Shown here one piece after another: positions 2,641-31,421 of a stretch of DNA of 33,869 nt. Below the pieces are notes generated by a model that saw only the letters and a program-made list of their open reading frames with translations, made no database searches and was not told the DNA's origin. The DNA is from Elusimicrobiota bacterium. GTDB taxonomy: Bacteria > Elusimicrobiota > Elusimicrobia > F11. Where the stretch lies: NCBI GenBank assembly GCA_003140895.1, contig PLLH01000053.1, positions 1 through 33,869 of the forward strand, read 5' to 3'. A program made the translations under genes and the position numbers. The first letter of the stretch is position 1; every line of letters begins with the position of its first letter.

Positions 2641-4150
2641 ATATTCTCAACTCATCCAAGAAGACAACCGCTTCCGTTTCTGGGTGTCCCTTTTTGTTTT
2701 CCTCAGTTGTCTCCTTTTCCTGATCCCAGGACCGGCGCAGAGTATTCTGCAGGTTGTCCTGATCCTCCTCGTTTACTCTCTCTGTTATAGCCTCGGTCAG
2801 GTTCTGGCCAAAAAGAACTTCGCCAATCGATTCCTTGTCTTTTCGTTGTACGCCCTCGATTGCCTTGCCGTGACCTCCGCTATTTATTTGACCGGCGGAC
2901 TTCAAAGCGATCTTTATTTTCTCTATCTGGTTATTCTAGGAGTGTCGCTGTACCGGCAGAATTGGGTTGCCTTCACGTATGAAGCGGTTCTTTCGGTGTC
3001 GTTGTATGTGGGACTCCTGGTGTGGATGGGGCGAACGAATGGCGGGGTCAATTATTGGTTTATCGCTGCGCAGACCCTTTTGCTGGGATCGCTGATCGGG
3101 GTTCTGACGGCGTTGTTATTGGTATTGAAAAAGGATCAAGCGGAGAAAAACAAATTGATTTCCCGGGCTCGGACATTAGCTCATATTGCCGATGTGGTGA
3201 GCGGTTCTCTCAGTAATTCCCGCGATTGGATTAAGACGATCACCGGTCTTATCGAAGACGAAATTCACGCGGATGGTTTGACGTGCCGGATTTTCATTCA
3301 TCGGGGTGAACAGCAATTTCTGCCTCCCAGCGGGGGGAAAACGGGGCTTCACCTTCCGATTATGGTGGGGGAAATTATTTTCGGATCTTTGATTGTCCAT
3401 TGGACGCGCCTCAAACCGCTCAGCATGCAGGACAATCAATTCTTTTCCTCCATCGCGCATTCCCTGGGGCTCTCTCTCCACCGCGCTAAATTGTGGGAGG
3501 ATTTTCAGTCCCAGATGGAACGGATCGAAGCGGGGCTGCGGCTCACCTCCTCCGTGCCCTCCACGCTTTCCAACGAGGCTCAGAAAACCTATCAACAGCG
3601 GGTGGTCAACGATATGTTGGAGATGGTTCGCCTGGAACGGGGAAAATGGGAGATCAAAAAGGATATTTGCTTCATCACCGATCTGTTAAAAAACGAGATC
3701 GATGTGGTTATGGGGGCCTCGTCCTCAAAAAACCTGACCTTTTCGACGGATTGGCGGGATGCGGATCTGTCGCCCTTTTGGGCCGATAACAATAAAATCA
3801 AACACGTGATCGCCAACCTTCTCTATAACGCCGTTGAGGCGAGCCCCTTCGGCGGGAAAATAACGCTTCGCGCTCGTCAAGACGAACGCCAGATTTTGGT
3901 GTCCATCCATAATCAAGGGCAGGGCATTCCTGACGCGGAGCTGAATGATGTTTTTGAAAAGTATTACCGGTTGGGGCCTATCCATGAACCGTCCAAACCG
4001 TCTCACTTTGGTTTGGGACTCGCCATTTGCCAAAAGATCGTTCAAGCCCACAAAGGGCATATTTGGGCTGAATCCAAGGGAGAGGGGCAGGGGAGCACGC
4101 TCTGGGTCAGTCTGCCGGTGGAACCGGTTTCCGTTAAGTCGGTTTCTTAA
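2630..4150 (+). CDS. Membrane sensor kinase-like protein (GAF + HATPase), His box apparently missing
   Basis: Predicted partner of the preceding MerR-receiver protein, 506 residues, starting at a TTG that overlaps the regulator's stop by 11 bases. Residues about 15-166 hold around six transmembrane helices. A GAF-like domain spans roughly 180-287 and ends in the usual helix (HSLGLSLHRAKLWEDF). The C-terminal ATPase domain is well preserved: N box NLLYNAVEAS at 396-405, G1 box NQGQGIP at 428-434 (Asn where Asp is usual), G2 FGLGLA at 460-465. The dimerisation/phosphotransfer region between them (about 290-340) is very short. It ends in the familiar MVRLERGKWEI, but I find no SHELRTPL-like His box and no histidine at all between 285 and 391. 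It may be a pseudokinase, or may signal without autophosphorylation. The gene meets the minus-strand glycoside hydrolase tail-to-tail with overlapping stops. Confidence 0.85.
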   Translation: MSIKYSQLIQEDNRFRFWVSLFVFLSCLLFLIPGPAQSILQVVLILLVYSLCYSLGQVLAKKNFANRFLVFSLYALDCLAVTSAIYLTGGLQSDLYFLYLVILGVSLYRQNWVAFTYEAVLSVSLYVGLLVWMGRTNGGVNYWFIAAQTLLLGSLIGVLTALLLVLKKDQAEKNKLISRARTLAHIADVVSGSLSNSRDWIKTITGLIEDEIHADGLTCRIFIHRGEQQFLPPSGGKTGLHLPIMVGEIIFGSLIVHWTRLKPLSMQDNQFFSSIAHSLGLSLHRAKLWEDFQSQMERIEAGLRLTSSVPSTLSNEAQKTYQQRVVNDMLEMVRLERGKWEIKKDICFITDLLKNEIDVVMGASSSKNLTFSTDWRDADLSPFWADNNKIKHVIANLLYNAVEASPFGGKITLRARQDERQILVSIHNQGQGIPDAELNDVFEKYYRLGPIHEPSKPSHFGLGLAICQKIVQAHKGHIWAESKGEGQGSTLWVSLPVEPVSVKSVS

Positions 4151-15853: not shown

Positions 15854-18124
15854 ATGTTCAAGAAAATAAAGCACATTCACTTCGTTGGGATTGGCGGAAG
15901 CGGCATGAGCGGCATCGCCGAAGTGCTGCTTAAATTGGGCTATGGCGTGACGGGCAGCGATTTGGTGAAAAACGCCGAGGTGTCGCGTCTGTCCGATATG
16001 GGCGCTGTCGTTTCCATCGGCCACGCCGGAAAAAATATCGGGAAGGCGGATGTGGTTGTGACCTCCACCGCCGTTTCAAAAGACAATCCGGAAGTGAAAG
16101 AAGCGCAAAAGCGCGGCGTCCCGGTTATTCGCCGCGTTGAAATGTTGGCGGAAATCGCGCGCCTGAAATACACCATCGCCATCGCCGGAACCCACGGGAA
16201 AACGACCACCTCTTCCATGGTGGGGCAGGTGTTTAAATTCGGCGGTTTGGATCCCACCGTCATTGTCGGCGGGCGGCTTAAAGCGGTCGGAACCGGCGGG
16301 GTTCTTGGCGCCGGAGATTACCTGGTCGCCGAGGCGGACGAATCCGACGGATCGTTTCTGAAACTCTCTCCCACCATTAACATCATCACCAACATCGACA
16401 ACGATCATTTGGATTACTACAAAACAAAAGAGAACCTTAAATCCGCGTTTGTCGAATTCGCCAATCATATTCCCTTTTACGGTATGAACATTGTGTGCTG
16501 GGAAGATCCCATCGTTCGAAAAATTCTGCCGCTCATCAACCGCCGCTATCAAACCTATGGGTTCGATAAAAAGTGCGACCTGCGGGCCACGGATCTCGTG
16601 ACCGATCCGCGCGGGTCCACGTTCACGGTGACCCGGAACGGCCAGGTTCTTGGGCCCGTGACGGTTCCTCTTTATGGGAAGCACAATGTGCTGAACGCGT
16701 TGGCCGCGTTGGGAGCCGGGCTCCAAGTGGATTTGCCGTTTCGTTTGGCGGCGGAGGCGCTCTCTCAGTTCGCCGGCGTGGGGCGCCGGATCGAGGTGAG
16801 GGGAGAATCGCGCGGAGTGACAGTCGTGGACGATTACGGCCATCATCCGACGGAAATGAAAGCCACGATCGCGGCTCTCCGGCAGCGCTGGCCCGAACGG
16901 CGACTGGTGGTGCTCTTTCAACCGCACCGTTTCACGCGCACGCAAGCGCTCTACAAAGATTTCGCCGCCGCTCTTAATAGTGTGGACCGGTTGGTTCTTA
17001 TGCCGATTTATCCGGCGGGGGAAAAACCCATTAAAGGCGTCACCAGTCAGCTCATCGCCAAAAATCTGAAAAAGAAGAACTGGGAATGGTGGACGGGAGA
17101 TGAAACGCTGGGAAAATTACTCGTGGATCTGAAATCCGGCGACGTGCTCTTGACGCTTGGGGCCGGTGACGTCTGGAAAATCGGTGAAAAATATTTAACC
17201 GCCGCGTCCCTCCTCGCTCATCAAATCAAGGCGGCGGTGCCCAGTTTGGATGGACGAATCAAATCAGAAGAACCGCTTTCTCGCCACTCAACGTGGGGGA
17301 TCGGCGGCCCCGCCGAGGTGTTCGTGGAAGTTCATAACGTGGGCGAATTGAATGGAGTGACCCGCTTTTGCCGCGAGCGAAAAATCTCCACGCTTATTTT
17401 GGGGTGGGGCTCGAACGTGCTTCTGCCGGATGAAGGGATTCGCGGGTGCGTGCTTCGCCTTCGGGGGGATTTTGAAGCCGTTCATTTCGATGGAAATCAG
17501 GTGCGGCTGGGAGCCGGCGTTCATTTGCCGAAACTCTCCAAACGGTGCGCGGAAAAAGGCCTCGCCGGAACGGAAGCGCTCGCGGGAATTCCCGGGACCA
17601 TCGGGGGGGCGCTGGTCATGAACGCGGGAACGCCTCGCGGCGTGATCGGAGACGTGCTCGTGTCGGCCGACATATTAAATGAAGACGGATCTGTCTCGAC
17701 GTTGGCGAAAGACAAGATCCGTTTCGGTTACCGGGAGAGCAGTTTGGCGGGGAGCTGTATTGTCGGGGCAGTGCTCAACCTCAAATTTTCCACGGATCAG
17801 CAGGTTCAGGAGCGTATTGCAACAGAGCTCACGCATCGGGAGAAAACGCAGCCGCTCGGGACCAAAAACGCCGGGTCTGTTTTTCGAAACCCGCCGCAGG
17901 ATTACGCGGCTCGCTTGATCGAGGCGGCGGGCCTCAAAGGCCAGTCCATCGGCGGCATGAGGGTATCGCCCAAACACGCCAATTTTTTTGAAAACACCGG
18001 CGGCGGAACGGCCAAAGACGCCCTGGCTCTCGTCGAATTCGTGCGATCCACCGTTAAAGAGAAATTTAATATTGAACTTCAGCTGGAAGTCAAAATCGTC
18101 CGTCAGCCGCCTTTGCCGTCATGA
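15854..18124 (+). CDS. murC/murB: MurC-MurB fusion: UDP-MurNAc L-alanine ligase / UDP-GlcNAc-enolpyruvate reductase
   Basis: Bifunctional cytoplasmic enzyme of 756 residues that performs two consecutive steps of peptidoglycan precursor synthesis. Residues 1 to about 455 are MurC: N-terminal Rossmann GIGGSGMSGIAEVL (12-25), ATP loop GTHGKTTT at 112-119, DNDHLDYY (182-189) and DDYGHHPTE (326-334). Residues about 463-750 are MurB: FAD-binding LGWGSNVLLPDEG and LAGIPGTIGGALVMNAG (577-592), Y626-R627, proton-donating S675 in NAGSVFRNP and E745 in QLEVKIV. The NAGSVFRNP and GMRVSPKHANFF blocks indicate the B. subtilis-like type II MurB. No linker of note separates them. It overlaps ddl (ATGA). The order MurC then MurB is the reverse of the reaction order. 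No frameshift is seen, so the fusion looks genuine. Confidence 0.96.
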   Translation: MFKKIKHIHFVGIGGSGMSGIAEVLLKLGYGVTGSDLVKNAEVSRLSDMGAVVSIGHAGKNIGKADVVVTSTAVSKDNPEVKEAQKRGVPVIRRVEMLAEIARLKYTIAIAGTHGKTTTSSMVGQVFKFGGLDPTVIVGGRLKAVGTGGVLGAGDYLVAEADESDGSFLKLSPTINIITNIDNDHLDYYKTKENLKSAFVEFANHIPFYGMNIVCWEDPIVRKILPLINRRYQTYGFDKKCDLRATDLVTDPRGSTFTVTRNGQVLGPVTVPLYGKHNVLNALAALGAGLQVDLPFRLAAEALSQFAGVGRRIEVRGESRGVTVVDDYGHHPTEMKATIAALRQRWPERRLVVLFQPHRFTRTQALYKDFAAALNSVDRLVLMPIYPAGEKPIKGVTSQLIAKNLKKKNWEWWTGDETLGKLLVDLKSGDVLLTLGAGDVWKIGEKYLTAASLLAHQIKAAVPSLDGRIKSEEPLSRHSTWGIGGPAEVFVEVHNVGELNGVTRFCRERKISTLILGWGSNVLLPDEGIRGCVLRLRGDFEAVHFDGNQVRLGAGVHLPKLSKRCAEKGLAGTEALAGIPGTIGGALVMNAGTPRGVIGDVLVSADILNEDGSVSTLAKDKIRFGYRESSLAGSCIVGAVLNLKFSTDQQVQERIATELTHREKTQPLGTKNAGSVFRNPPQDYAARLIEAAGLKGQSIGGMRVSPKHANFFENTGGGTAKDALALVEFVRSTVKEKFNIELQLEVKIVRQPPLPS

Positions 18125-19086
18125 ATTACATGCTCCTCATTCGTTGGCTTCAGGCGCGTCGGATCGCCGTTTTGAAAGGCGGGAGTTCGTCGGAGCGGGA
18201 GATTTCGCTTAAAACGGGAGCCGCCGTCCTTCAGGCGTTTAAGCGCCTGGGCATTCGAGCCGTCGGCATCGATGTCCAGTCGAATTTGCCGGAGGTGCTT
18301 CGGAAGAAGCGGATTCAGTTTTGTTTCAACGCCCTTCACGGAACCAATGGTGAAGACGGGCGCGTTCAAGGATGTCTGGACGTGATGGGGCTTCCCTACA
18401 CGGGCGAGGGCGTCTTTGCCAGTGCCGTAGCGATGGACAAGCATTTGTCGAAGACTCTCTTTAAGAAAAATGGCGTGCCGACCGCTCCGTGGATGCTGGT
18501 TCACCGTTTGGATTATCTGCGTTCCAAAAAAGAGGTGTTGGCGGCGGTTCGCCGGTTTATGACGCGAGGGCCGTTGTTTATTAAACCCAACGATCAGGGC
18601 TCGGCGATCGGCGTTTCCAAAGTGGAACGCCCGCGCGAGATCGACAAGGCGCTCAAGGCTTGTTTCGCTCTTTCATCGGGAGCGATGGTGGAGCGGTTCG
18701 TGACGGGGCGTGAGCTCACCGTCGGGATCTTGGGGGAATGCGTTCTCCCGGTTATTGAAATTATTCCCCAACATTCTTTTTATGATTTTCATTCCAAGTA
18801 CGCGAAGGGAGGCTCGAAGCACATTGTGCCGGCTCCTCTTTCACGAATGATGTCGATGCGCGCTCAAGTGTTGGCCTTAAAGGCGTTTCAAGCGATTCCC
18901 TGTTCGGTTTACGGACGGGTCGATTTGCTTTTGCAGCCCAACGGCCAAATGAAGGTGCTCGAAGTGAACACGATTCCCGGAATGACCACGACGTCGCTTC
19001 TTCCGGATGCGGCCAAGGCCGCGGGCATGGATTTTGATAAGCTGGTGTTGGAGATTATCCGGCTTTCTCTGAAGAAGAAAAAATAA
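18121..19086 (+). CDS. ddl: D-alanine--D-alanine ligase
   Basis: ATP-grasp enzyme that makes the D-Ala-D-Ala dipeptide for MurF; 321 residues, the normal length. Landmarks are LKGGSSSEREISLKTG (18-33, Ser/Glu substrate site), ALHGTNGEDGRVQG (71-84), the ATP-grasp Lys in LFIKPNDQGSAIGV, and the closing VLEVNTIPGMTTTSLLPDAAKAAG with its Mg-binding Glu and Asn. The ATG overlaps the MurC-MurB stop as ATGA, so translation is coupled. Position between murB and ftsQ is the standard division-cluster order. Confidence 0.97.
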   Translation: MNYMLLIRWLQARRIAVLKGGSSSEREISLKTGAAVLQAFKRLGIRAVGIDVQSNLPEVLRKKRIQFCFNALHGTNGEDGRVQGCLDVMGLPYTGEGVFASAVAMDKHLSKTLFKKNGVPTAPWMLVHRLDYLRSKKEVLAAVRRFMTRGPLFIKPNDQGSAIGVSKVERPREIDKALKACFALSSGAMVERFVTGRELTVGILGECVLPVIEIIPQHSFYDFHSKYAKGGSKHIVPAPLSRMMSMRAQVLALKAFQAIPCSVYGRVDLLLQPNGQMKVLEVNTIPGMTTTSLLPDAAKAAGMDFDKLVLEIIRLSLKKKK

Positions 19087-19100
19087 ATTTCACCATTTTT

Positions 19101-19107
19101 AAGGGAG
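19101..19107 (+). promoter_or_regulatory. Shine-Dalgarno that points to a CTG start for ftsQ
   Basis: AAGGGAG is followed by 6 bases and a CTG at 19114. No ATG, GTG or TTG occurs in that frame between the upstream stop (19084) and the GTG at 19297, which would delete the cytoplasmic tail and half of the membrane helix. Confidence 0.6.
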
Positions 19108-19113
19108 ATTCCT

Positions 19114-19986
19114 CTGCGAAGAAAATACAAGTCGCTTCTGGGGTCGAAGCGAACCAGCTATTTTGTTGAACCCAAAGCCTCTCGCCGTTCGGGGGGGGAG
19201 AAAAAACGCTCCCAAAAGGTCCGTTTTCGATCGAAATACGCCTCCTCCGTTCTTCATCAAACCGGCCGCCGCTTATGGACGCTGACCAAAACGGTCGTGG
19301 TGATAGGGGCGGTGGGGTGGGCGAGCTACAAGGGAAACCAATTTTGGAACAGGAGCCCCGCCATTCGGGTGGCGCGCATTCATTTCTCAGGAAACATTCC
19401 ACCCACGTTAAAAGAGCATCTGCCGTTTTCCATCGGGCAGAATCTTTTTCTTCTTCATCCCAAGCAGATGTCCCGGGATTTGTTGGCTCGTTTTCCGGAG
19501 CTGAAAACCCTCACCATCTCCCGGCATCTTGACCGCACGGTTATCGTGGAGGGACGTTTCCGCGTTCCGTTCGCTCTCATGAAGCAAAACGAGAAGGAAA
19601 TGGGGGTGGATCATGACGGCGTGTCATTCCCGATTCAAGATTACAACCGGCCTCTCATGGCGCTCCCGATGATTCATGGGCGCGCCGACGCCGCGGTTCT
19701 CAAAGAGATGGCGGCTTCTCTCCTGCTTTTGGAAAAACAGGTGCCTGCTTTTTATTCCCAGATAAAATTCCTGGAAACTGATAATATGAGGCCGTTGGTC
19801 GTCGGACTCTCCGACGACGTCCTGATTCAATGGGGCGAGATGACGACGGAGAGTGTTGTCGACCGAGCGGAAAATATCCTAAGGTTGAGGGATCATTTTA
19901 GTCCGAAGAAGAAGCTGGCCCTGTTGCGATTCGTAACGACGAGCCGGGTTGTCATGGACGCCGATTGGATGCCGGTGGGAAAGTAA
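19114..19986 (+). CDS. ftsQ: Cell-division protein FtsQ (POTRA domain), probable CTG start
   Basis: Bitopic inner-membrane division protein that bridges early and late divisome components; 290 residues if begun at the CTG at 19114. The first 50 residues are strongly basic (RRKYKS, KASRRS, KKRSQK, RFRSKY), fitting a cytoplasmic tail. A single membrane helix follows at about 54-71 (LTKTVVVIGAVGWASY). A POTRA-like domain starts at about 85 (IRVARIHFSGNIPP...) and continues through the FtsQ beta domain. Starting at the first conventional codon, GTG 19297, would cut into the helix and lose the tail, and that codon has no good ribosome-binding site. Sequence similarity to FtsQ is weak, but the topology and the place between ddl and ftsA make the call secure. 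The start remains uncertain. Confidence 0.85.
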   Translation: MRRKYKSLLGSKRTSYFVEPKASRRSGGEKKRSQKVRFRSKYASSVLHQTGRRLWTLTKTVVVIGAVGWASYKGNQFWNRSPAIRVARIHFSGNIPPTLKEHLPFSIGQNLFLLHPKQMSRDLLARFPELKTLTISRHLDRTVIVEGRFRVPFALMKQNEKEMGVDHDGVSFPIQDYNRPLMALPMIHGRADAAVLKEMAASLLLLEKQVPAFYSQIKFLETDNMRPLVVGLSDDVLIQWGEMTTESVVDRAENILRLRDHFSPKKKLALLRFVTTSRVVMDADWMPVGK

Positions 19987-20007
19987 TTTTTTTGAGGGGG
20001 ACGACGC

Positions 20008-21288
20008 GTGTCAAAGCCTGAAATCATTGCGGGGTTGGATGTGGGAAGCGGTCAGATCGCCTGCGTGATTGGCCGGAGAAATCCGGATCAAGATCAAGTG
20101 GAGATCGTCGCTGCCGCCCGCCAGCCGTGCCGGGGCCTTAAAGGCGGCGTGGTCATCAACATCGAAGAAACGGCGCTCGCCATCACCCGCGTGGTTGAAA
20201 TGGCGGAAGAGATGTCCAAGGAAACCGTCCGGGACTTGATCGTCGGTATCCGCGGGTCTCACACGCAAACGTTTAACCATCATGGGGCCATCAACATCGC
20301 CCGCACCGATAAAGAAATCACCACCGACGACGTATCCCAAGTCATTGAATCCACGAAAGCCGTTCCCATCTCGACCGACCGGGAAATCATTCACGTTATC
20401 CCTCAGGATTTCGTGTTGGACCGCCAGCAAGGCGTTCCCAATCCGGTCGGCATGGAGGGGTCTCTTTTGGAAGTCGAAGTTCATATCGTCACGGCCGGGT
20501 CCAGCCATCTCAATAACATTTGGAGATCCATTAATCACGCCGGGTTCGGAATTCGGGAGCCCGTGTACGGTCTTCTGGCTGTCGGCGACGTCGTTGTGAC
20601 GCAAGAGGAAAAAGACTTGGGATGCCTGCTGATCGATTTGGGCGGGGCCACCACGGGTCTCGCCATTTACAGCGATGGCGGAGTTCGGTTTACGAAGGAA
20701 ATCCCGTTGGGGGCGGATTCGATCACCACGGATTTGGCCCACGGCCTTAGGACCTCGATTTCACAAGCCAAAATGGTGAAAGAACGGTATGGCACCGCGA
20801 TTCGTCCGAGCCGTAAGCACGCGCTGGTTTCCGTCGCCGGTCGAGATGAAGAAATCGACATCGTGGATGATGAGATCACCTACACCAGCGTCGATGGCCG
20901 GACCACGCGGGAGATTCAGAGAACAACTCTTTTTGAATTCATCGCTCCGCGCGTCGAAGAAATTTTTACGCTCGTCAAACAGGAAATGGATAATTCCGGG
21001 ATGGCGGAACAAATCGTGGCGGGCGGCGTGATTTTGACGGGAGGCGGATCGATGATGCCGGGGTTGGTGGAGGCGGCGGAGAAAATTTTGGAGCTTCCGG
21101 CCCGCCAGGGGCTTCCCCAAAATATTTTGGGGCTTTCCGAAGCGGTGTCGCATCCCAGCTACGCCACGTCCATTGGTCTCATCAATTTTCATTCGTTCGG
21201 CGATTGGCCGCGAAATCACAAATCGGGCCGGCGCGCGGGCGGTTCCATGTTTGGCCAGATCAAATCCATGTTCCTGGACCTTTTTTGA
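20008..21288 (+). CDS. ftsA: Cell-division actin homologue FtsA
   Basis: Actin-fold ATPase that tethers the FtsZ ring to the membrane and recruits later divisome proteins; 426 residues from a GTG start with GAGGGGG upstream. The phosphate-1 loop is AGLDVGSGQIACVIG (8-22), phosphate-2 is LLIDLGGATTGLA, and the adenosine motif is GGVILTGGGSMMPG. The SHS2-like 1C domain is the region around 85-165. The last residues, GGSMFGQIKSMFLDLF, form the amphipathic membrane-targeting helix. It lies 21 bases after ftsQ and 47 before ftsZ. Confidence 0.97.
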   Translation: MSKPEIIAGLDVGSGQIACVIGRRNPDQDQVEIVAAARQPCRGLKGGVVINIEETALAITRVVEMAEEMSKETVRDLIVGIRGSHTQTFNHHGAINIARTDKEITTDDVSQVIESTKAVPISTDREIIHVIPQDFVLDRQQGVPNPVGMEGSLLEVEVHIVTAGSSHLNNIWRSINHAGFGIREPVYGLLAVGDVVVTQEEKDLGCLLIDLGGATTGLAIYSDGGVRFTKEIPLGADSITTDLAHGLRTSISQAKMVKERYGTAIRPSRKHALVSVAGRDEEIDIVDDEITYTSVDGRTTREIQRTTLFEFIAPRVEEIFTLVKQEMDNSGMAEQIVAGGVILTGGGSMMPGLVEAAEKILELPARQGLPQNILGLSEAVSHPSYATSIGLINFHSFGDWPRNHKSGRRAGGSMFGQIKSMFLDLF

Positions 21289-21335
21289 TTCCACATCTCA
21301 CATATCTGTTTTTTCGCTGAGGAGAACCGCACCGC

Positions 21336-22454
21336 ATGACACGCATTAAATTTACTGATGATTTTAAAGATCAACCGGCCGTCATTCGCGTGATCGGGAT
21401 GGGAGGCGCTGGTGGAAACGCCGTCAACCGGATGGTGGAAGCCGACGTGTCCCAAGTTGAATTTATCACGGCCAACACCGACGCCCAGGCGCTTCGAAGG
21501 AGCCTGTCTCCCGTTCGCATTCAGCTGGGAGAGAAATTGACCAAAGGTCTTGGGGTGGGGGGAAATCCCGCTCTGGGGCGCCAGGCGGCGGAAGAATCCG
21601 CGGACCGGTTGAAGGAAGTGGTGAGCGGCGCCGACATGCTTTTCATTACGGCCGGGATGGGCGGCGGAACAGGAACCGGGTCGGCTCCTTTTGTGGCGAA
21701 GCTCGCGAAATCGCTCACTCCGGCGCCCTTGGTTGTGGCGGTGGTCACGCGTCCCTTTCAATTTGAAGGATTGGTGCGGGCCAACCAGGCGTCGGCCGGC
21801 ATTGAGGAATTGCGGCCGTATGTCGACACCTTGCTTGTCATCCCGAATGATCGTCTTTTTGAAATTATCGATGAGAAAACGCCCACGTTGGAGGCCTACC
21901 GCGTGGCCGATGACGTCCTCCGGCAAGCGATGCAGGCCATCACCGACGTCATCACCACCCACGGCTTGGTGAACGTGGATTTTGCCGACGTGAAAAGCAT
22001 TATGGCCGGAGCCGGCGAAGCGCTCATGGGCATCGGCAATTCCTCCGGCCCGGACCGGGCGCTCAGCGCCGCTCGCCAGGCCGTTCAATCCCCGCTTTTG
22101 GAAAATGTGTCGATTGATGGAGCCAAAGGCGTCTTGATCAACATCACCGGCAATAAAAACGTGACCATGTTCGAGGTTCGTGAAGTGATGGACTTTATCG
22201 GCTCGGCCACCTCCGCTCATTCTCACGTGTTTTATGGGCAAGTTTTTGACGAGTCTCTGGAAGATAAACTGAAGGTGACGGTGATCGCCACGGGGTTCCC
22301 CACGCGCGTTAAATCCCAAGCCCTTGACCGAACCGCCGCCAGAAAACAGGCGGCCCTTCAAAATTCCCAGGCGGCTCCGCTCCCTGCCCTCACGTCCGAT
22401 GACGACCTCCGCCGCCCGGCTTACCTGCGTTTACGCAATCGAAAACTGAAATAA
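21336..22454 (+). CDS. ftsZ: Cell-division tubulin homologue FtsZ
   Basis: GTPase that polymerises into the Z-ring; 372 residues. N-terminal GMGGAGGNAVNRM (21-33), the tubulin signature GGGTGTGSAP at 109-118, and the T7 synergy loop NVDFADVKSIM, which completes the GTPase site of the neighbouring subunit. After the C-terminal domain comes a short linker of about 35 residues. The conserved tail DDDLRRPAYLRLR then binds FtsA and other partners; it is followed by a basic NRKLK extension. The short linker is at the low end for the family. GAGGAG upstream serves as ribosome-binding site, about 10 bases before the ATG. Confidence 0.98.
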   Translation: MTRIKFTDDFKDQPAVIRVIGMGGAGGNAVNRMVEADVSQVEFITANTDAQALRRSLSPVRIQLGEKLTKGLGVGGNPALGRQAAEESADRLKEVVSGADMLFITAGMGGGTGTGSAPFVAKLAKSLTPAPLVVAVVTRPFQFEGLVRANQASAGIEELRPYVDTLLVIPNDRLFEIIDEKTPTLEAYRVADDVLRQAMQAITDVITTHGLVNVDFADVKSIMAGAGEALMGIGNSSGPDRALSAARQAVQSPLLENVSIDGAKGVLINITGNKNVTMFEVREVMDFIGSATSAHSHVFYGQVFDESLEDKLKVTVIATGFPTRVKSQALDRTAARKQAALQNSQAAPLPALTSDDDLRRPAYLRLRNRKLK

Positions 22455-25831: not shown

Positions 25832-25860
25832 ATGACATATTAAGGGGTGGCGGCTATAGT
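25832..25860 (+). promoter_or_regulatory. Promoter of the giant gene, leaderless spacing
   Basis: ATGACA (25832-25837, 5/6 of the -35 consensus), a 17-base spacer and TATAGT (25855-25860, 5/6 of the -10 consensus) end 7 bases before the ATG at 25868. The transcript is predicted to begin at the start codon. This also argues against the in-frame GTG at 25847, which lies inside the promoter. Confidence 0.65.
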
Positions 25861-25867
25861 TAAAGGG

Positions 25868-28800
25868 ATGATACGGAAGATTGTCGCCCTAACCTGTGGC
25901 CTTTTATTTTTTACCTCCAACGTGGCGTGTCTCTATGCCGTTGAAACCAATGTGTGGGCGGAACGGCGGCGCCATTCGGAGGCCGCGCGTCAGAACGAGA
26001 CGTCACCTCAGTTGGCTTCGATCAAAGGGCTCCCGACCAGCGAAATTTCTTTTAATCGGCTTCTTCACAATATTATGGGGGTTGGGGAATCGTTGGGAGC
26101 GCTGTCGAAACACTCCTCCATCACTTCCACTTCCCACGCCTCGCTCCAGAAACATCCTGTTCCGTTTATTGAGAACATTCCCCTGAATGCCGGTTCCATT
26201 CGGGACGTTTATGTTTCCCCAACCTCGCCAGGGGAATCCTCGCGGCCGTTTATCTTCCTGATTCAAGACATCCATCAGAATTACGAAGCGCAGAAAAATA
26301 TCGTCGCCATCCTTCAGTCATTGGCGGAAGCGGACCCGGGAAAAAACAGAACCCGAGGTTTGTTGGTTGGAGTGGAAGGAGCCTTTGGCCCGCTCGATTT
26401 CAATTTATACCGCCTTTTCCCTGATAAGAAATTAATTCGGAAAGTCGCCGACTATTTTCTTGAGAAAGGGAAAATCGCCGCGCCGAGTTATGTGGGGCTG
26501 ACATTGGAGGGGACGGGTTCGTCTTTTGTCGGTGTCGACGATCCTCTTCATTACCAAAAGAATGTGAAAGCCTATTTGACGGCGGCGGCGTCGAAAGAGG
26601 TGTTGAATAAAAAATTGGCGATCTCGCGGAGCCATCTCGCTACGTTAAAAAGATCGGGGTTAAACGCCGACCTCGCTTTTCTGGATGACCGGCGCGCGGC
26701 CTTTGAGACAGGGAAGTTGGGGTTAGGGGAGTATGTGAAGGTCCTGTTTGAGCGATCTCAGCAGCCTCGTGAGTTGGTTCTTGAGAAATTTCAAAACGCG
26801 TATGAAATGGAGAAAACGCTCGATTTCTCCCGGGTTGAAAGTGAGCGAATGCGCGTCATAGAGAAACTCGCTTCGCAATTAAATCCGTCCGATTTGAAGT
26901 CTCTTTTTTTGAGCGGTTTGGCCTACCGGACTGGGAAAATCAGTTACGCCGATTATTATCAAACTATTAAATCTCTCTTGGACCGGGCTTCTATTTCTTT
27001 GGCCCAAGCGCCTCACTTTGACCGTTACATTCGTTATGTGATTTTGGCTGACGGCATCAACGCGGAGTCGCTTTTGGCCGCCGTCAAACGGCTTGAAACA
27101 GACGTGGTGGCCTCGTTGATTCAAACGAAGGAAGAACGGGCTTTGGTTGATCGGTCTCGTTACCTCTCTCTGGTGGCCAAGTTGTTGGAATTTGGGCTTG
27201 TTCCTGAGGAATGGACGGAATACAAGAGCTGTCATCGGACGACTCTCGTGGGAAGTGAGGATTTTTCCGCTGAGTTGACGCCATTTGAACAGTTTTACGA
27301 AGAGGCTGATGTTCGAAGTCAAAAAATAGTGGAGAGGATGATGGAGGGGGCACACCCTACCCTGGTGGCTCTTCTCGTGGGAGGGTTCCACACGCCTCAG
27401 ATGACGCAACTTCTGAGGAAGAAGGGTCTTTCGTACGCTGTGGTTCAGCCCCGGATTTCGAAAGTGGAAGACGCGTCGGGGACGTCGTATCTGTCGATTT
27501 TTTCAAAGGAAAAAACACCCATCGATCAGCTCTTCGCCGGCCAAAAACTTTTCTTGGCTCCGCATTCAACCGCCTTGGGAACCTCCGTGTTGATGTCAGC
27601 GCTAAGAACGGGGGCGTCGTTTTTAGGAGTGATGTCTCTTCTATCTCGCCGCGCGGGAGAAGAAATCCCGGCAGGGGTGCCGGTCGTTATGGCAAGTGGT
27701 GACACGCGCGTGGACGTGCAGATGCCCGGCCTGGACGAAACGGTTGAGGCTTCTATAGGGCGGGATTCCTCTGGGGAGATCGTTGCGATTCCTGGCGAGC
27801 CTGTTATCACGGTTCGTTCGACAAAGAAGCTGTTTTCTTTCTTGCGGATGTGGACGGCGTCTCTTCGGGACTCGTGGTCTGAGAGGGAGAAAATTTTTTC
27901 CAACGAGTTTGTCGACATTCACAATCCTCAATCTAATGTCCAGCGATTTGTGCGGCGATCCGTGATTGGGGTGGTTCGGTTGTCCTCCACCGTGGGGTAT
28001 GGGGTTGGCCTTCTTGGAAGTCCTGCGCTCATGGTGGCGGGTTTGATGTCGCTTCTTGTTCAGGTTTCTGTCCAGTTATCGTTTGTTTCCGTTCTTCTCC
28101 TTGGGATCCCCTCACTTTTTATCGGTGATTTATTGGCGATCGCCTCCGCGCGCCGGTTCTCCGTCGGTTTTAATGTGGGGACTCATTTCCTTTACAATTT
28201 TCTGGTGGCGCCTCTTTTGACTCTCGTGATTGGGTGGACGCCGCTGTCGGCTTCTTTACCCGATGATAATCCGGACGCCTCTCCTTTTCCCGACGGGACG
28301 GGGGCGGCATCCATTGCGGCGGCGGGACACACGGAGCGAAACGAAGACGCTTATTTCGTTATGGAACTCCCCGGCGGGATTCACGTGGCGGGCGTGTTTG
28401 ACGGAGTGGGGGGTGACGAGAGCGGCGAGATCGCCAGCCGGATCGCCCGGGATTCGATCATGGAGGAATTAAAGGGAATTTCAGGGACGGAGACAAAAGA
28501 TGAAATGATCGGGATATTGAGCCGAGCCATGGTCAACGCCCGGGACGCCATCAACAGTCGATTGGAGGGAAAGAAGAGCGGAACGGCGGCCACTGTGATG
28601 GTGTCGTTCCCGCCGGGAGATGTCTTCATTGCGAGTGCGGCTGACACGCGAGCTTATCTTTTGGATGAACAAGGGCGTTTCCGCCCGCTCACGGTTGATA
28701 ATTCAAGAGGAAATGCCGACGGTTCTCCGTTTGTGATGGATGAGTCGTCCCTTCAGGCCAATCTCCAGGAAAGTGAACAAGAGTCGCTGGACGAAATTTC

Positions 28801-31300
28801 CAGCTTGCAGGATTTATCCGCGTTAAGAGACCCAACCAAATTTATAGTTAGAAATGTAATCGCCAATTCGCTGAGGACAGGGTCGGCGGCGAACGCCTAT
28901 CGTCCAGTTCTGACGGTTATAAAAGTGAAGCCGGGAGAACGTATTTTTCTGACGAGTGACGGAGTCCATGACCCTCTAACGCGTCAGCAATTGCTTGAAT
29001 TAACAAACAAACCATCAATGCCCCCGTTGGCGTTGGCTCAAGGAATCGCTAATGAAGCGGCTCGTGAGGTGGCGAATCCTGAAAATTATAGATGGAAAGG
29101 AGGGGGTGGGGATGACGTGACGGTTGTCGTGGTTGAAATCGGGCATGGATCTCATCCGATGACACCCATGGTGAGGACAGACGGAATCCAATTGAAGCAA
29201 CCGCCGATCCAGCCTAAAAATGAGCCGCCCGCTTTAAAGAAAACAGGAGTGTTTCGTCCTCGGGGTCCCGTAAAAATCGAAGGGCTCCGTTCCAAGACGG
29301 AAGCGAAGGACCATGCGATAAAAGCGGCGAAAGAGTCGGAGGAGGGCCGGATATTGGTGTTTGCGTCTCCTATCTTATCTACCGATGACGCGAATAGGCT
29401 GCACCGTATGAGTTTGGACGAAGTTTTTGCCGGGATTGAGAGCGGATGGATAGGACTCATTGACTATCGGGATGTGGGTGGAAAGAATAGGCCCGGCCCT
29501 CATTTGGCCGAGATTGATGAGTCAAAAAAACCGGCGGCAGAAAACACAGCAACACCCAAACAGCCGGAAGGAGTTCTTCCTCCAAACGAAGCGCCCAAAC
29601 GGGAAGATAAAAAATTGCCGCTGCGCCTTGAGAGTCTTAATAGAGCGCGATCTGCAGCGTGGGCCATCTCTAAAGAAGGAACGGAGGCGCTAACGGTGTT
29701 TGATCGCCGGTTGGATCTGCTGGCCGCCAGGGTTTCGTCCCCGGTTGATTTAGAGGAGGTTCTGCGAGGATTGGATACGCATGACATCGCGTTTTTCACA
29801 ACGGGGGCGATTTCCTATTTTGCCCGGACCCATATCGACCCGGTCCTTATTCGTTCAAATGTTGACGCAATACGGCAGGGCGAAGCCGATGCCGAAGCGC
29901 GCGCGAAGTCACTTTATAGCGGATTTCCTCTTAGCTTATCAGGCGTTGTGGATCATCAAGGAACGGTTCGTTTCTTTGGAGAGATGAGTGAGCTTCCGTC
30001 TGATCTGGATGACGCATTGAGTCGAGGTGAGCTGAGGCAATTTGACATTACGTATAGGGGAGCTGCTGAGGGAAGGGCTCGAACCATCGTTTTGGACGTT
30101 GCGATTCCACTCAGCGCGGAAATCGCACTCCGGAAGACGATGCAAGACTTTAACGCGAGTAACGAGAGCGGCTCGGCTCTGACGACCCCCGCCTCGATCC
30201 TTCGGGCTCTTCGGTTTCTGTCCTTTGTTGGCTTTAATGCGACATCGCTTTCTGTTGGATTTCTGGTTCTCTTGATTGAATTTCCCCAATTTTTCAATCC
30301 AGCTCGATTCTTAAACGCGCATGTGAACCGGACCCCCTCCGATAAAGTGGTGAGGGGGATTGGAATCGCTCTCATTTGGGCTGCGATGATCGGTTTTTCC
30401 TTTTGGATGGCCCAGCCGTTCTCACATGAGTTCAGTACCGGTCTTGTGGTTCGCTTTATGACCAGTCTCTTCATCACCAATATTCTCGCCCACGGATTCT
30501 GGATGGCGGTGTTCGGCCGGGCCGCGTTGAATCAAACCCAGCTTTCAATGATGGAGTTGGCGTTAAAGAGCAAACAGGGGAAAATCAGCCGCGCCGAGTT
30601 GGTGGCGTCCTTGTTGCGGTTCTTGCCGAAAGCGGACGCCGTGGGAATGGACATGAACGCCCGCGGGCGCGCCATGCGTTCCCTTGTGACAGATGTGGAC
30701 GTCAATGATGGGACGGCGTTGGCGGAAGGCGTGGCTCTTCTGGGATTATTGGAAAACTCCCGCTCTAGCGATGTTCAGCAAATGCGATCCACTCTTATCG
30801 ATATTCAGCGGGATCCGAAATCGCCCAACATCCTTGTTCGCTTGATGAATCCCACTGGAGATGCGGGTGCCCTTGGGAAAGAAATAGGCGCTCTTCAAAG
30901 CGGTAAACGACCGATGGACCGGGTTCTCATGCTGGTTACAGAGAATAATATCCAGGGGTCCGATCTTACGAAACTGAACGAGCGGTGGAACCCGTCGGGT
31001 ATTTTCCTTCGATTTAATAATGGAACAACAGAGTTAACGCTTCAAGGGATTCGGTCGTCCGTGAACGCGGAAGAACAGAAACAGGCGCGGGTCAAAATCT
31101 TTATTGATCAACGAGCCGAACGGGCCCTGTCGCCTTCCGTGATGTCCGCCTTACGGGATTTGGAAAAGAACAAAGACTTGGTTGACCTTTATCTGACCGT
31201 GGGCGACATTCTCACTATGGCCATCGCCATTCGCATCTCCATTTCTCAACTCACCCACCTCAACATGATGCGGGAAACCTTGATCGCCATCCAAGCGTAA
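25868..31300 (+). CDS. Giant membrane protein: signal peptide, possible TIKI/ChaN-like domain, PP2C phosphatase domain, unknown C-terminus
   Basis: A single uninterrupted 1810-residue protein. Residues 1 to about 24 form a signal peptide (MIRKIVALTCGLLFFTSNVACLYA). About 125-560 is a domain with QDIH at 133-136, GVEGA at 168-172, GVDDPLHY at 222-229 and VGGFHT at 504-509; spacing and the GX2H-type motif recall the TIKI/TraB/EreA/ChaN superfamily, an inference. About 697-790 holds three or four membrane helices. About 811-1092 is a complete PP2C Ser/Thr phosphatase: RNED 824-827, FDGVGG 844-849, SGTAATV 904-910, DTR 926-928, SDG 1030-1032 and DD 1082-1083. A proline/lysine-rich linker (about 1210-1250) follows, then an unrecognised region, three membrane helices (about 1447-1471, 1495-1515, 1525-1549) and an unrecognised C-terminal domain. 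It has its own promoter. Similar oversized hypothetical proteins occur in Omnitrophota, as far as I recall. Confidence 0.85.
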   Translation: MIRKIVALTCGLLFFTSNVACLYAVETNVWAERRRHSEAARQNETSPQLASIKGLPTSEISFNRLLHNIMGVGESLGALSKHSSITSTSHASLQKHPVPFIENIPLNAGSIRDVYVSPTSPGESSRPFIFLIQDIHQNYEAQKNIVAILQSLAEADPGKNRTRGLLVGVEGAFGPLDFNLYRLFPDKKLIRKVADYFLEKGKIAAPSYVGLTLEGTGSSFVGVDDPLHYQKNVKAYLTAAASKEVLNKKLAISRSHLATLKRSGLNADLAFLDDRRAAFETGKLGLGEYVKVLFERSQQPRELVLEKFQNAYEMEKTLDFSRVESERMRVIEKLASQLNPSDLKSLFLSGLAYRTGKISYADYYQTIKSLLDRASISLAQAPHFDRYIRYVILADGINAESLLAAVKRLETDVVASLIQTKEERALVDRSRYLSLVAKLLEFGLVPEEWTEYKSCHRTTLVGSEDFSAELTPFEQFYEEADVRSQKIVERMMEGAHPTLVALLVGGFHTPQMTQLLRKKGLSYAVVQPRISKVEDASGTSYLSIFSKEKTPIDQLFAGQKLFLAPHSTALGTSVLMSALRTGASFLGVMSLLSRRAGEEIPAGVPVVMASGDTRVDVQMPGLDETVEASIGRDSSGEIVAIPGEPVITVRSTKKLFSFLRMWTASLRDSWSEREKIFSNEFVDIHNPQSNVQRFVRRSVIGVVRLSSTVGYGVGLLGSPALMVAGLMSLLVQVSVQLSFVSVLLLGIPSLFIGDLLAIASARRFSVGFNVGTHFLYNFLVAPLLTLVIGWTPLSASLPDDNPDASPFPDGTGAASIAAAGHTERNEDAYFVMELPGGIHVAGVFDGVGGDESGEIASRIARDSIMEELKGISGTETKDEMIGILSRAMVNARDAINSRLEGKKSGTAATVMVSFPPGDVFIASAADTRAYLLDEQGRFRPLTVDNSRGNADGSPFVMDESSLQANLQESEQESLDEISSLQDLSALRDPTKFIVRNVIANSLRTGSAANAYRPVLTVIKVKPGERIFLTSDGVHDPLTRQQLLELTNKPSMPPLALAQGIANEAAREVANPENYRWKGGGGDDVTVVVVEIGHGSHPMTPMVRTDGIQLKQPPIQPKNEPPALKKTGVFRPRGPVKIEGLRSKTEAKDHAIKAAKESEEGRILVFASPILSTDDANRLHRMSLDEVFAGIESGWIGLIDYRDVGGKNRPGPHLAEIDESKKPAAENTATPKQPEGVLPPNEAPKREDKKLPLRLESLNRARSAAWAISKEGTEALTVFDRRLDLLAARVSSPVDLEEVLRGLDTHDIAFFTTGAISYFARTHIDPVLIRSNVDAIRQGEADAEARAKSLYSGFPLSLSGVVDHQGTVRFFGEMSELPSDLDDALSRGELRQFDITYRGAAEGRARTIVLDVAIPLSAEIALRKTMQDFNASNESGSALTTPASILRALRFLSFVGFNATSLSVGFLVLLIEFPQFFNPARFLNAHVNRTPSDKVVRGIGIALIWAAMIGFSFWMAQPFSHEFSTGLVVRFMTSLFITNILAHGFWMAVFGRAALNQTQLSMMELALKSKQGKISRAELVASLLRFLPKADAVGMDMNARGRAMRSLVTDVDVNDGTALAEGVALLGLLENSRSSDVQQMRSTLIDIQRDPKSPNILVRLMNPTGDAGALGKEIGALQSGKRPMDRVLMLVTENNIQGSDLTKLNERWNPSGIFLRFNNGTTELTLQGIRSSVNAEEQKQARVKIFIDQRAERALSPSVMSALRDLEKNKDLVDLYLTVGDILTMAIAIRISISQLTHLNMMRETLIAIQA

Positions 31301-31349: not shown

Positions 31350-31421
31350 GGGCAGTTAGCTCAGCGGGAGAGCGTTCGCTTTACAAGCGAAGGGTCACAG
31401 GTTCGATCCCTGTACTGCCCA
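31350..31421 (+). tRNA. tRNA-Val (anticodon TAC)
   Basis: A 72-base cloverleaf. The acceptor GGGCAGT/ACTGCCC is fully paired. The D arm is AGCTCAGCGGGAGAGC, the anticodon stem TTCGC/GCGAA closes loop TTTACAA with TAC at 31382-31384, and the T arm is CACAGGTTCGATCCCTGT. The discriminator is A, with no encoded CCA. Confidence 0.96.

Follow-up and report, generated by a model that had tools for sequence, protein, structure and literature searches.

An 1810-residue Elusimicrobiota protein belongs to a phylum-wide family of giant fusions with a constant head and interchangeable tails

Membrane-anchored PP2C phosphatases are known in bacteria, PstP and SpoIIE being examples. The TIKI superfamily includes Tiki/TraB, erythromycin esterases, ChaN (PF04187), and the endopeptidase RRSP, in which the catalytic residues are an E-x-H pair, a Glu that follows after 28 residues, and an Arg placed 29 residues ahead of a second His (PMC6254334). 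Polymorphic toxin systems, which are defined by immunity genes, have a constant N-terminal part, exchangeable downstream modules, and several copies per genome (PMC3482391). The accessible parts of three further reports describe giant multi-domain proteins in Omnitrophota (PMC10066038, PMC12419801), and Elusimicrobiota and neighbouring phyla as rich in huge proteins without assigned function (PMC11573180).

Here we analysed a stretch of 33,869 nucleotides (the window) from an Elusimicrobiota genome and found that an 1810-residue protein encoded in it belongs to a family of giant fusions spread across the phylum, in which a constant head is joined to interchangeable tails. Like the giants described in the accessible parts of those reports, the family shows very long chains, many membrane helices, few but diverse domains, and restriction to a lineage. 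The same parts (PMC10066038, PMC11573180, PMC12419801) name no common N-terminal head, and, unlike the giants described there, the head-defined family extends down to members of about 900 aa. The window protein itself (1810 aa) is shorter than the huge proteins of Elusimicrobiota (>5000 aa), whereas relatives with the same head extend to 6085 aa in its own genome and to 12,656 aa in genome G190. The head-plus-any-tail family is apparently undescribed; no earlier report was found within an incomplete coverage of the literature, and a prior mention is possible. One head marks many of the giant proteins of Elusimicrobiota and offers a testable putative active site, and anonymous giant genes, which make up roughly 6-11% of the two genomes examined, become a single protein family.

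The 1810-residue gene and its surroundings

The source genome (2.53 Mb in 118 contigs, 99.8% complete) belongs to the same family as Ca. Obscuribacterium magneticum (Elusimicrobiota), as does genome G002, and an assignment to Omnitrophota was rejected. The gene, the parts of its product behind the head, and the following gene were located at these positions:

25868..31300, + strand: whole open frame P0001, 1810 aa, from ATG 25868 to stop 31300
27986..28252, + strand: three-helix first membrane block, residues about 707-795, hydrophobic at about 713-790 (hydropathy, topology HMM)
28319..29146, + strand: PP2C domain, residues 818-1093 (Pfam, PstP alignment)
29147..29347, + strand: Pro/Lys-rich linker (sequence)
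30062..31297, + strand: C-terminal region common to L095/L115, including the second membrane block (30215-30517, residues about 1450-1550)
31350-31421, + strand: tRNA-Val, the next plus-strand gene after the 1810-aa frame

The frame is uninterrupted, with an in-frame GTG (25847) ahead of its ATG, and codon-position GC is even along its whole length. Its product begins with a signal peptide and a W-x-E-R-R motif, continues through a flexible stretch into a domain of ~430 residues, and then has, in this order, three hydrophobic helices, PP2C, the Pro/Lys-rich linker, the second membrane block, and the C-terminal region. The initial annotation had read a single frame with a signal peptide, the ~430-residue domain, two membrane blocks, and the linker, and all of these were found. 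It had also called the architecture undescribed, and no catalogued full-length family matched it. An assembly artefact was ruled out, since codon-position GC is steady, the architecture recurs in part in other genomes (head and C-terminus lie in one frame in L095/L115, 2218 aa), and dN/dS of giant relatives is <0.45.

Within the window, a MurC/MurB fusion, Ddl, FtsA, FtsZ, a type II/IV secretion ATPase, and an RNA methyltransferase are encoded upstream, and a 4-alpha-glucanotransferase downstream; nothing in this neighbourhood pointed to an operon with the 1810-aa gene. A cell-wall and division cluster (MurC-MurB fusion, Ddl, FtsA, FtsZ) at 15854-22454 adjoins the giant gene. Across the family no small downstream gene was common or consistent, the neighbours being unrelated housekeeping-type genes or another head gene, which supports the earlier view that a co-transcribed partner is lacking; tRNA-Val follows on the plus strand as had been noted. 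The strong promoter predicted for the gene did not hold up: the site at 25832-25860 has 10/12 consensus matches, but 2 sites were found vs 3.9 expected by chance.

A constant head with invariant hydrolase-type residues

By sequence comparison, the first ~570 residues of the protein are a head common to a large paralogous family. The following features were assigned to it:

25868..25942, + strand: signal peptide, residues 1 to about 25, MIRKIVALTCGLLFFTSNVACLYAV (sequence and hydropathy)
25943..25969, + strand: ETNVWAERR, linear motif (W-x-[ED]-[RK]) directly after the signal peptide
26165..27457, + strand: putative catalytic domain, residues 100-530, predicted alpha/beta core, TIKI/Ere/ChaN-like (AlphaFold2, PF04187 in relatives)
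26264..26275, + strand: QDIH, with D134 and H136, at a core-strand end (invariant in 79/79 and 17/17 heads)
26372..26383, + strand: VEGA, with E170, at the end of the next strand (invariant)
26543..27346, + strand: helical insertion, residues about 226-493, ~270 residues (AlphaFold2 DSSP)
27314..27316, + strand: R483, conserved basic residue before the second His (79/79 and 16/16 heads)
27380..27391, + strand: GGFH, with H508, the second His, in a G-rich turn (79/79 and 16/16 heads)
27509..27556, + strand: EKTPIDQLFAGQKLFL, conserved head end (conservation; the model is partly low-confidence there)

With residues 1-593 as the query, 20 heads were found in the 2.5 Mb genome of the window, nearly all opening long frames of about 900 aa or more, and the listed frames sum to ~48,800 codons, or about 6% of that genome. 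The head was present in 62 of 295 Elusimicrobiota genomes. About 45 head frames were found in genome G028 and about 18 in G190, where they add up to about 122,000 codons, close to 11% of 3.4 Mb. Heads from other classes scored about 150-200 bits vs 400-650, and large tails were found there too. The best 80 of 357 confirmed head matches in the GTDB collection were all from Elusimicrobiota. The domain that the initial annotation had left without clear identity is the common head of a family, and PP2C is one of many tails.

Nearly all paralogues have a signal-peptide-like start, judged by sequence and hydropathy. The W-x-[ED]-[RK] motif occurs in 84 of 102 heads, vs a chance rate of 2% within 130 aa of tail, and most of the remainder have W-x-x-R; it was not found in heads from other Elusimicrobiota classes. 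The structure prediction proposed earlier as a check succeeded for the head, which was modelled with 79 relatives as an alpha/beta core (AlphaFold2; pLDDT 87.8, pTM 0.85), and returned no confident fold for residues 1095-1810 (pLDDT 38). In the head model the invariant residues sit at strand ends of the core. D134, H136, Q142, E170, R483, H508, and P528 were invariant in all 79 relatives checked and at every aligned position of 17 heads from other classes, only aligned positions being counted.

In their order and spacing, acid-x-His, Glu, Arg, and His match the 2His/2Glu+Arg site of the TIKI superfamily. The two spacings are 28 (H to E, family median) and 28 (R to H, family mode) in the heads, 34 and 25 in the window head, and 28 and 29 in RRSP. 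The alpha/beta core with site residues at strand ends, as modelled, may be a further likeness. A weak match to the PF04187 profile (ChaN/Tiki superfamily) was obtained for 44 of 79 members (best 5e-7, most under the curated cut-off); the Pfam search of the window head itself gave no PF04187 match. Compared by hhalign with a profile of ten ordinary ChaN proteins, the head aligned GGFH on GxGH with an E value of 9e-4 and a probability of only 23. Unlike the TIKI superfamily, the head has Asp as its first acid in every case instead of the usual Glu, the His being invariant, contains the ~270-residue helical insertion, and always starts large fusion proteins. A Foldseek search of the head model against the PDB gave no significant match (best E 0.46), solved TIKI members included, and membership of the TIKI fold is therefore only probable. 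Taking sequence and model together, the head is probably, though not provenly, a TIKI-type hydrolase. A Pfam match of the helical insertion to PAH_ZNF598, which fell under the cut-off in the window protein, was dismissed as meaningless. The stretch EKTPxxxLFxGxKLFL is among the best conserved of the head and may represent a boundary or a processing site.

Some head loci showed irregularities. In the window's own genome, the head L059 (G000:C80:5500-7146) contains an internal TAA (pseudogene, sequencing error or recent loss), and at the end of the shortest complete head frame, L066 (G000:C86, 896 aa), a different frame is open over an overlapping stretch of 356 residues, so that a frameshift is possible. 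Contig C82 of G002 (99 kb) has identical head genes, L123 and L124, inverted at its two ends, which is probably a repeat-linked assembly artefact.

Exchange of tails and the position of PP2C

The 43 tails scanned in other genomes contained 17 Pfam families, none of which occurred in more than one tail; among them were starch synthase, inositol monophosphatase, subtilase, sigma-70 region 4, radical SAM, metallophosphatase, ankyrin, LMW phosphatase, NUDIX, and cellulase. Tails in the window's own genome include protein kinase with HATPase domains, a glycogen debranching enzyme, a superfamily-1-type helicase, MoxR-type AAA domains with a WD40 propeller, PPDK_N with GNAT, and a PEP-utilising enzyme with a GlpX-type FBPase. 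No toxin family was found among the Pfam matches of the tails. The kinase domain of L057 (G000:C16, residues about 3130-3330) keeps the glycine-rich loop and HGDLKPGN, has DVM in place of DFG, and may be odd or inactive.

When pairs of heads 42-65% identical were compared, their tails were mostly unrelated. Two heads in one genome (L150 and L160) show 86% protein and 84% DNA identity, the latter ending directly behind the head; their tails are unrelated. Between sister species, internal blocks of giant proteins have been replaced. In the conserved blocks of four giant pairs dN/dS was 0.05-0.40, from which it follows that heads and tails are maintained; the tails of relatives are under purifying selection.

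PP2C was the only Pfam family above cut-off in the 1810-aa protein (PP2C_2, PF13672, residues 823-1091, 1.2e-9). D845, D926, D1031, and D1082 align with the metal ligands of M. tuberculosis PstP (1txo/2cm1), as does the N-E-D motif at 825-827, so the domain is complete, as originally read. Like PstP and SpoIIE, it combines conserved metal ligands with adjoining membrane helices; these phosphatases lack a TIKI-like head and the ~700-residue C-terminal part of the window protein. Unlike theirs, the window PP2C belongs to a subfamily seen in other head-bearing giants (L096/L097, L098, and L099). In the tree the nearest head to that of the window is L115/L095, about 45% identical, and in this relative PP2C is absent, while its C-terminal 400 residues are 24-28% identical to those of the window protein (E 4e-17). 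The heads of L096/L097 and L098, for which the head is known, fall into other clades, with PP2C at different positions in the chain; PP2C has thus moved between heads, or has been gained and lost. Head and PP2C were joined in one frame in further genomes as well. The search for the same domain order in Elusimicrobiota, suggested with the initial annotation, thus recovered head with C-terminus and head with PP2C, the nearest relative lacking PP2C.

Proposed working and alternative readings

We propose, with belief and doubt about equally balanced, that these proteins form an exported, membrane-anchored modular family, in which a hydrolase head of TIKI/erythromycin-esterase type works outside and a variable tail gives each paralogue its activity. 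The signal peptide would place the constant N-terminal head outside the cytoplasmic membrane, an export that is supported, not proven. The head, always first folded and outside, would perform the same task in every paralogue, presumably the cutting of a peptide or ester bond, whether the substrate is a ligand, a partner in the envelope, or its own chain close to EKTPxxxLF. This cut may anchor, free or switch the tail, which would supply the paralogue-specific activity at the envelope; in the window protein this would be dephosphorylation by PP2C. The heads are shared, their hydrolase-type residues are invariant, tails have been exchanged, and in relatives purifying selection acts on both head and tail. 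Several tails are central-metabolism enzymes, which fit uneasily with sensing or envelope work and count against the proposal. A bolder form of it, which we regard as possible and put forward tentatively, is a combinatorial export platform, in which a TIKI-type peptidase head in up to about 45 copies per genome joins nearly any enzyme, moves it into or across the envelope, and by a self-cut frees itself from the chain. If true, the head would define a system of its own, separate from polymorphic toxins and from known surface proteins, and this would account for much of the unexplained giant-gene content of Elusimicrobiota.

The initial annotation took the layout to suggest a one-protein transmembrane signalling device, and in such a device the outside head would sense and set a cytoplasmic PP2C against a Ser/Thr kinase, perhaps the family member L057. 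The architecture on which this was based was correct. In favour of such a device, PP2C is complete, three helices could lead from an outside head to PP2C inside, membrane-bound PP2Cs such as PstP are known, and regulatory tails exist elsewhere in the family (kinase with HATPase domains in a paralogue, sigma-70 region 4 in another genome). However, the home-made topology HMM scored the head outside with PP2C inside about equally to a start inside with PP2C outside, leaving the placement a tie, and PP2C is missing from the protein whose head is closest to that of the window. The same head also fronts starch synthase, glycogen debranching enzyme, PEP-synthase, FBPase domains, subtilase, and cellulase, and is therefore not specific to signalling. 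A signalling role is possible but somewhat doubtful, and membership of the head-plus-any-tail family is the better description.

Less likely still is a polymorphic effector system, in which head and signal peptide would serve trafficking and processing and the tails would be payloads for prey, host or competitor cells. As in polymorphic toxin systems, the N-terminus is constant and the rest variable, with recent tail exchange. Many tails have the look of effectors (kinase, PP2C, LMW phosphatase, ankyrin, subtilase, GNAT, cellulase), secreted effectors contain TIKI-fold peptidase domains (PMC6254334), and predation is proposed for giant proteins of Omnitrophota in the accessible parts of two reports (PMC10066038, PMC12419801). 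In contrast to those systems, no immunity gene was found among downstream neighbours and no nuclease or other classical toxin domain was detected, and the classical polymorphic-toxin reading was rejected on these grounds. Many tails have multiple integral membrane helices, metabolic enzymes occur among them, and enzymatic modules lie mid-chain, not at the C-terminus only, which also argues against an effector system.

That the head is a structural or haem/metal-binding, ChaN-like envelope domain without hydrolase activity, with tails acquired by neutral gene fusion, is very improbable: ChaN, a name derived from haem binding, is the closest Pfam family and tail turnover is fast, but the hydrolase-type residues are invariant across classes despite low overall identity, and the tails of relatives are under purifying selection.

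Smaller-genome Elusimicrobia of family f10, which are without giant heads, encode rows of 370-500 aa frames (L230 in G080:C19, L231 in G070:C11) that match ChaN (PF04187) weakly and do not match the head profile. Elsewhere, head genes were also seen in pairs within one locus, divergent in L159 and tandem in L192, and downstream of L068 and of L070 the next gene was again a head gene.
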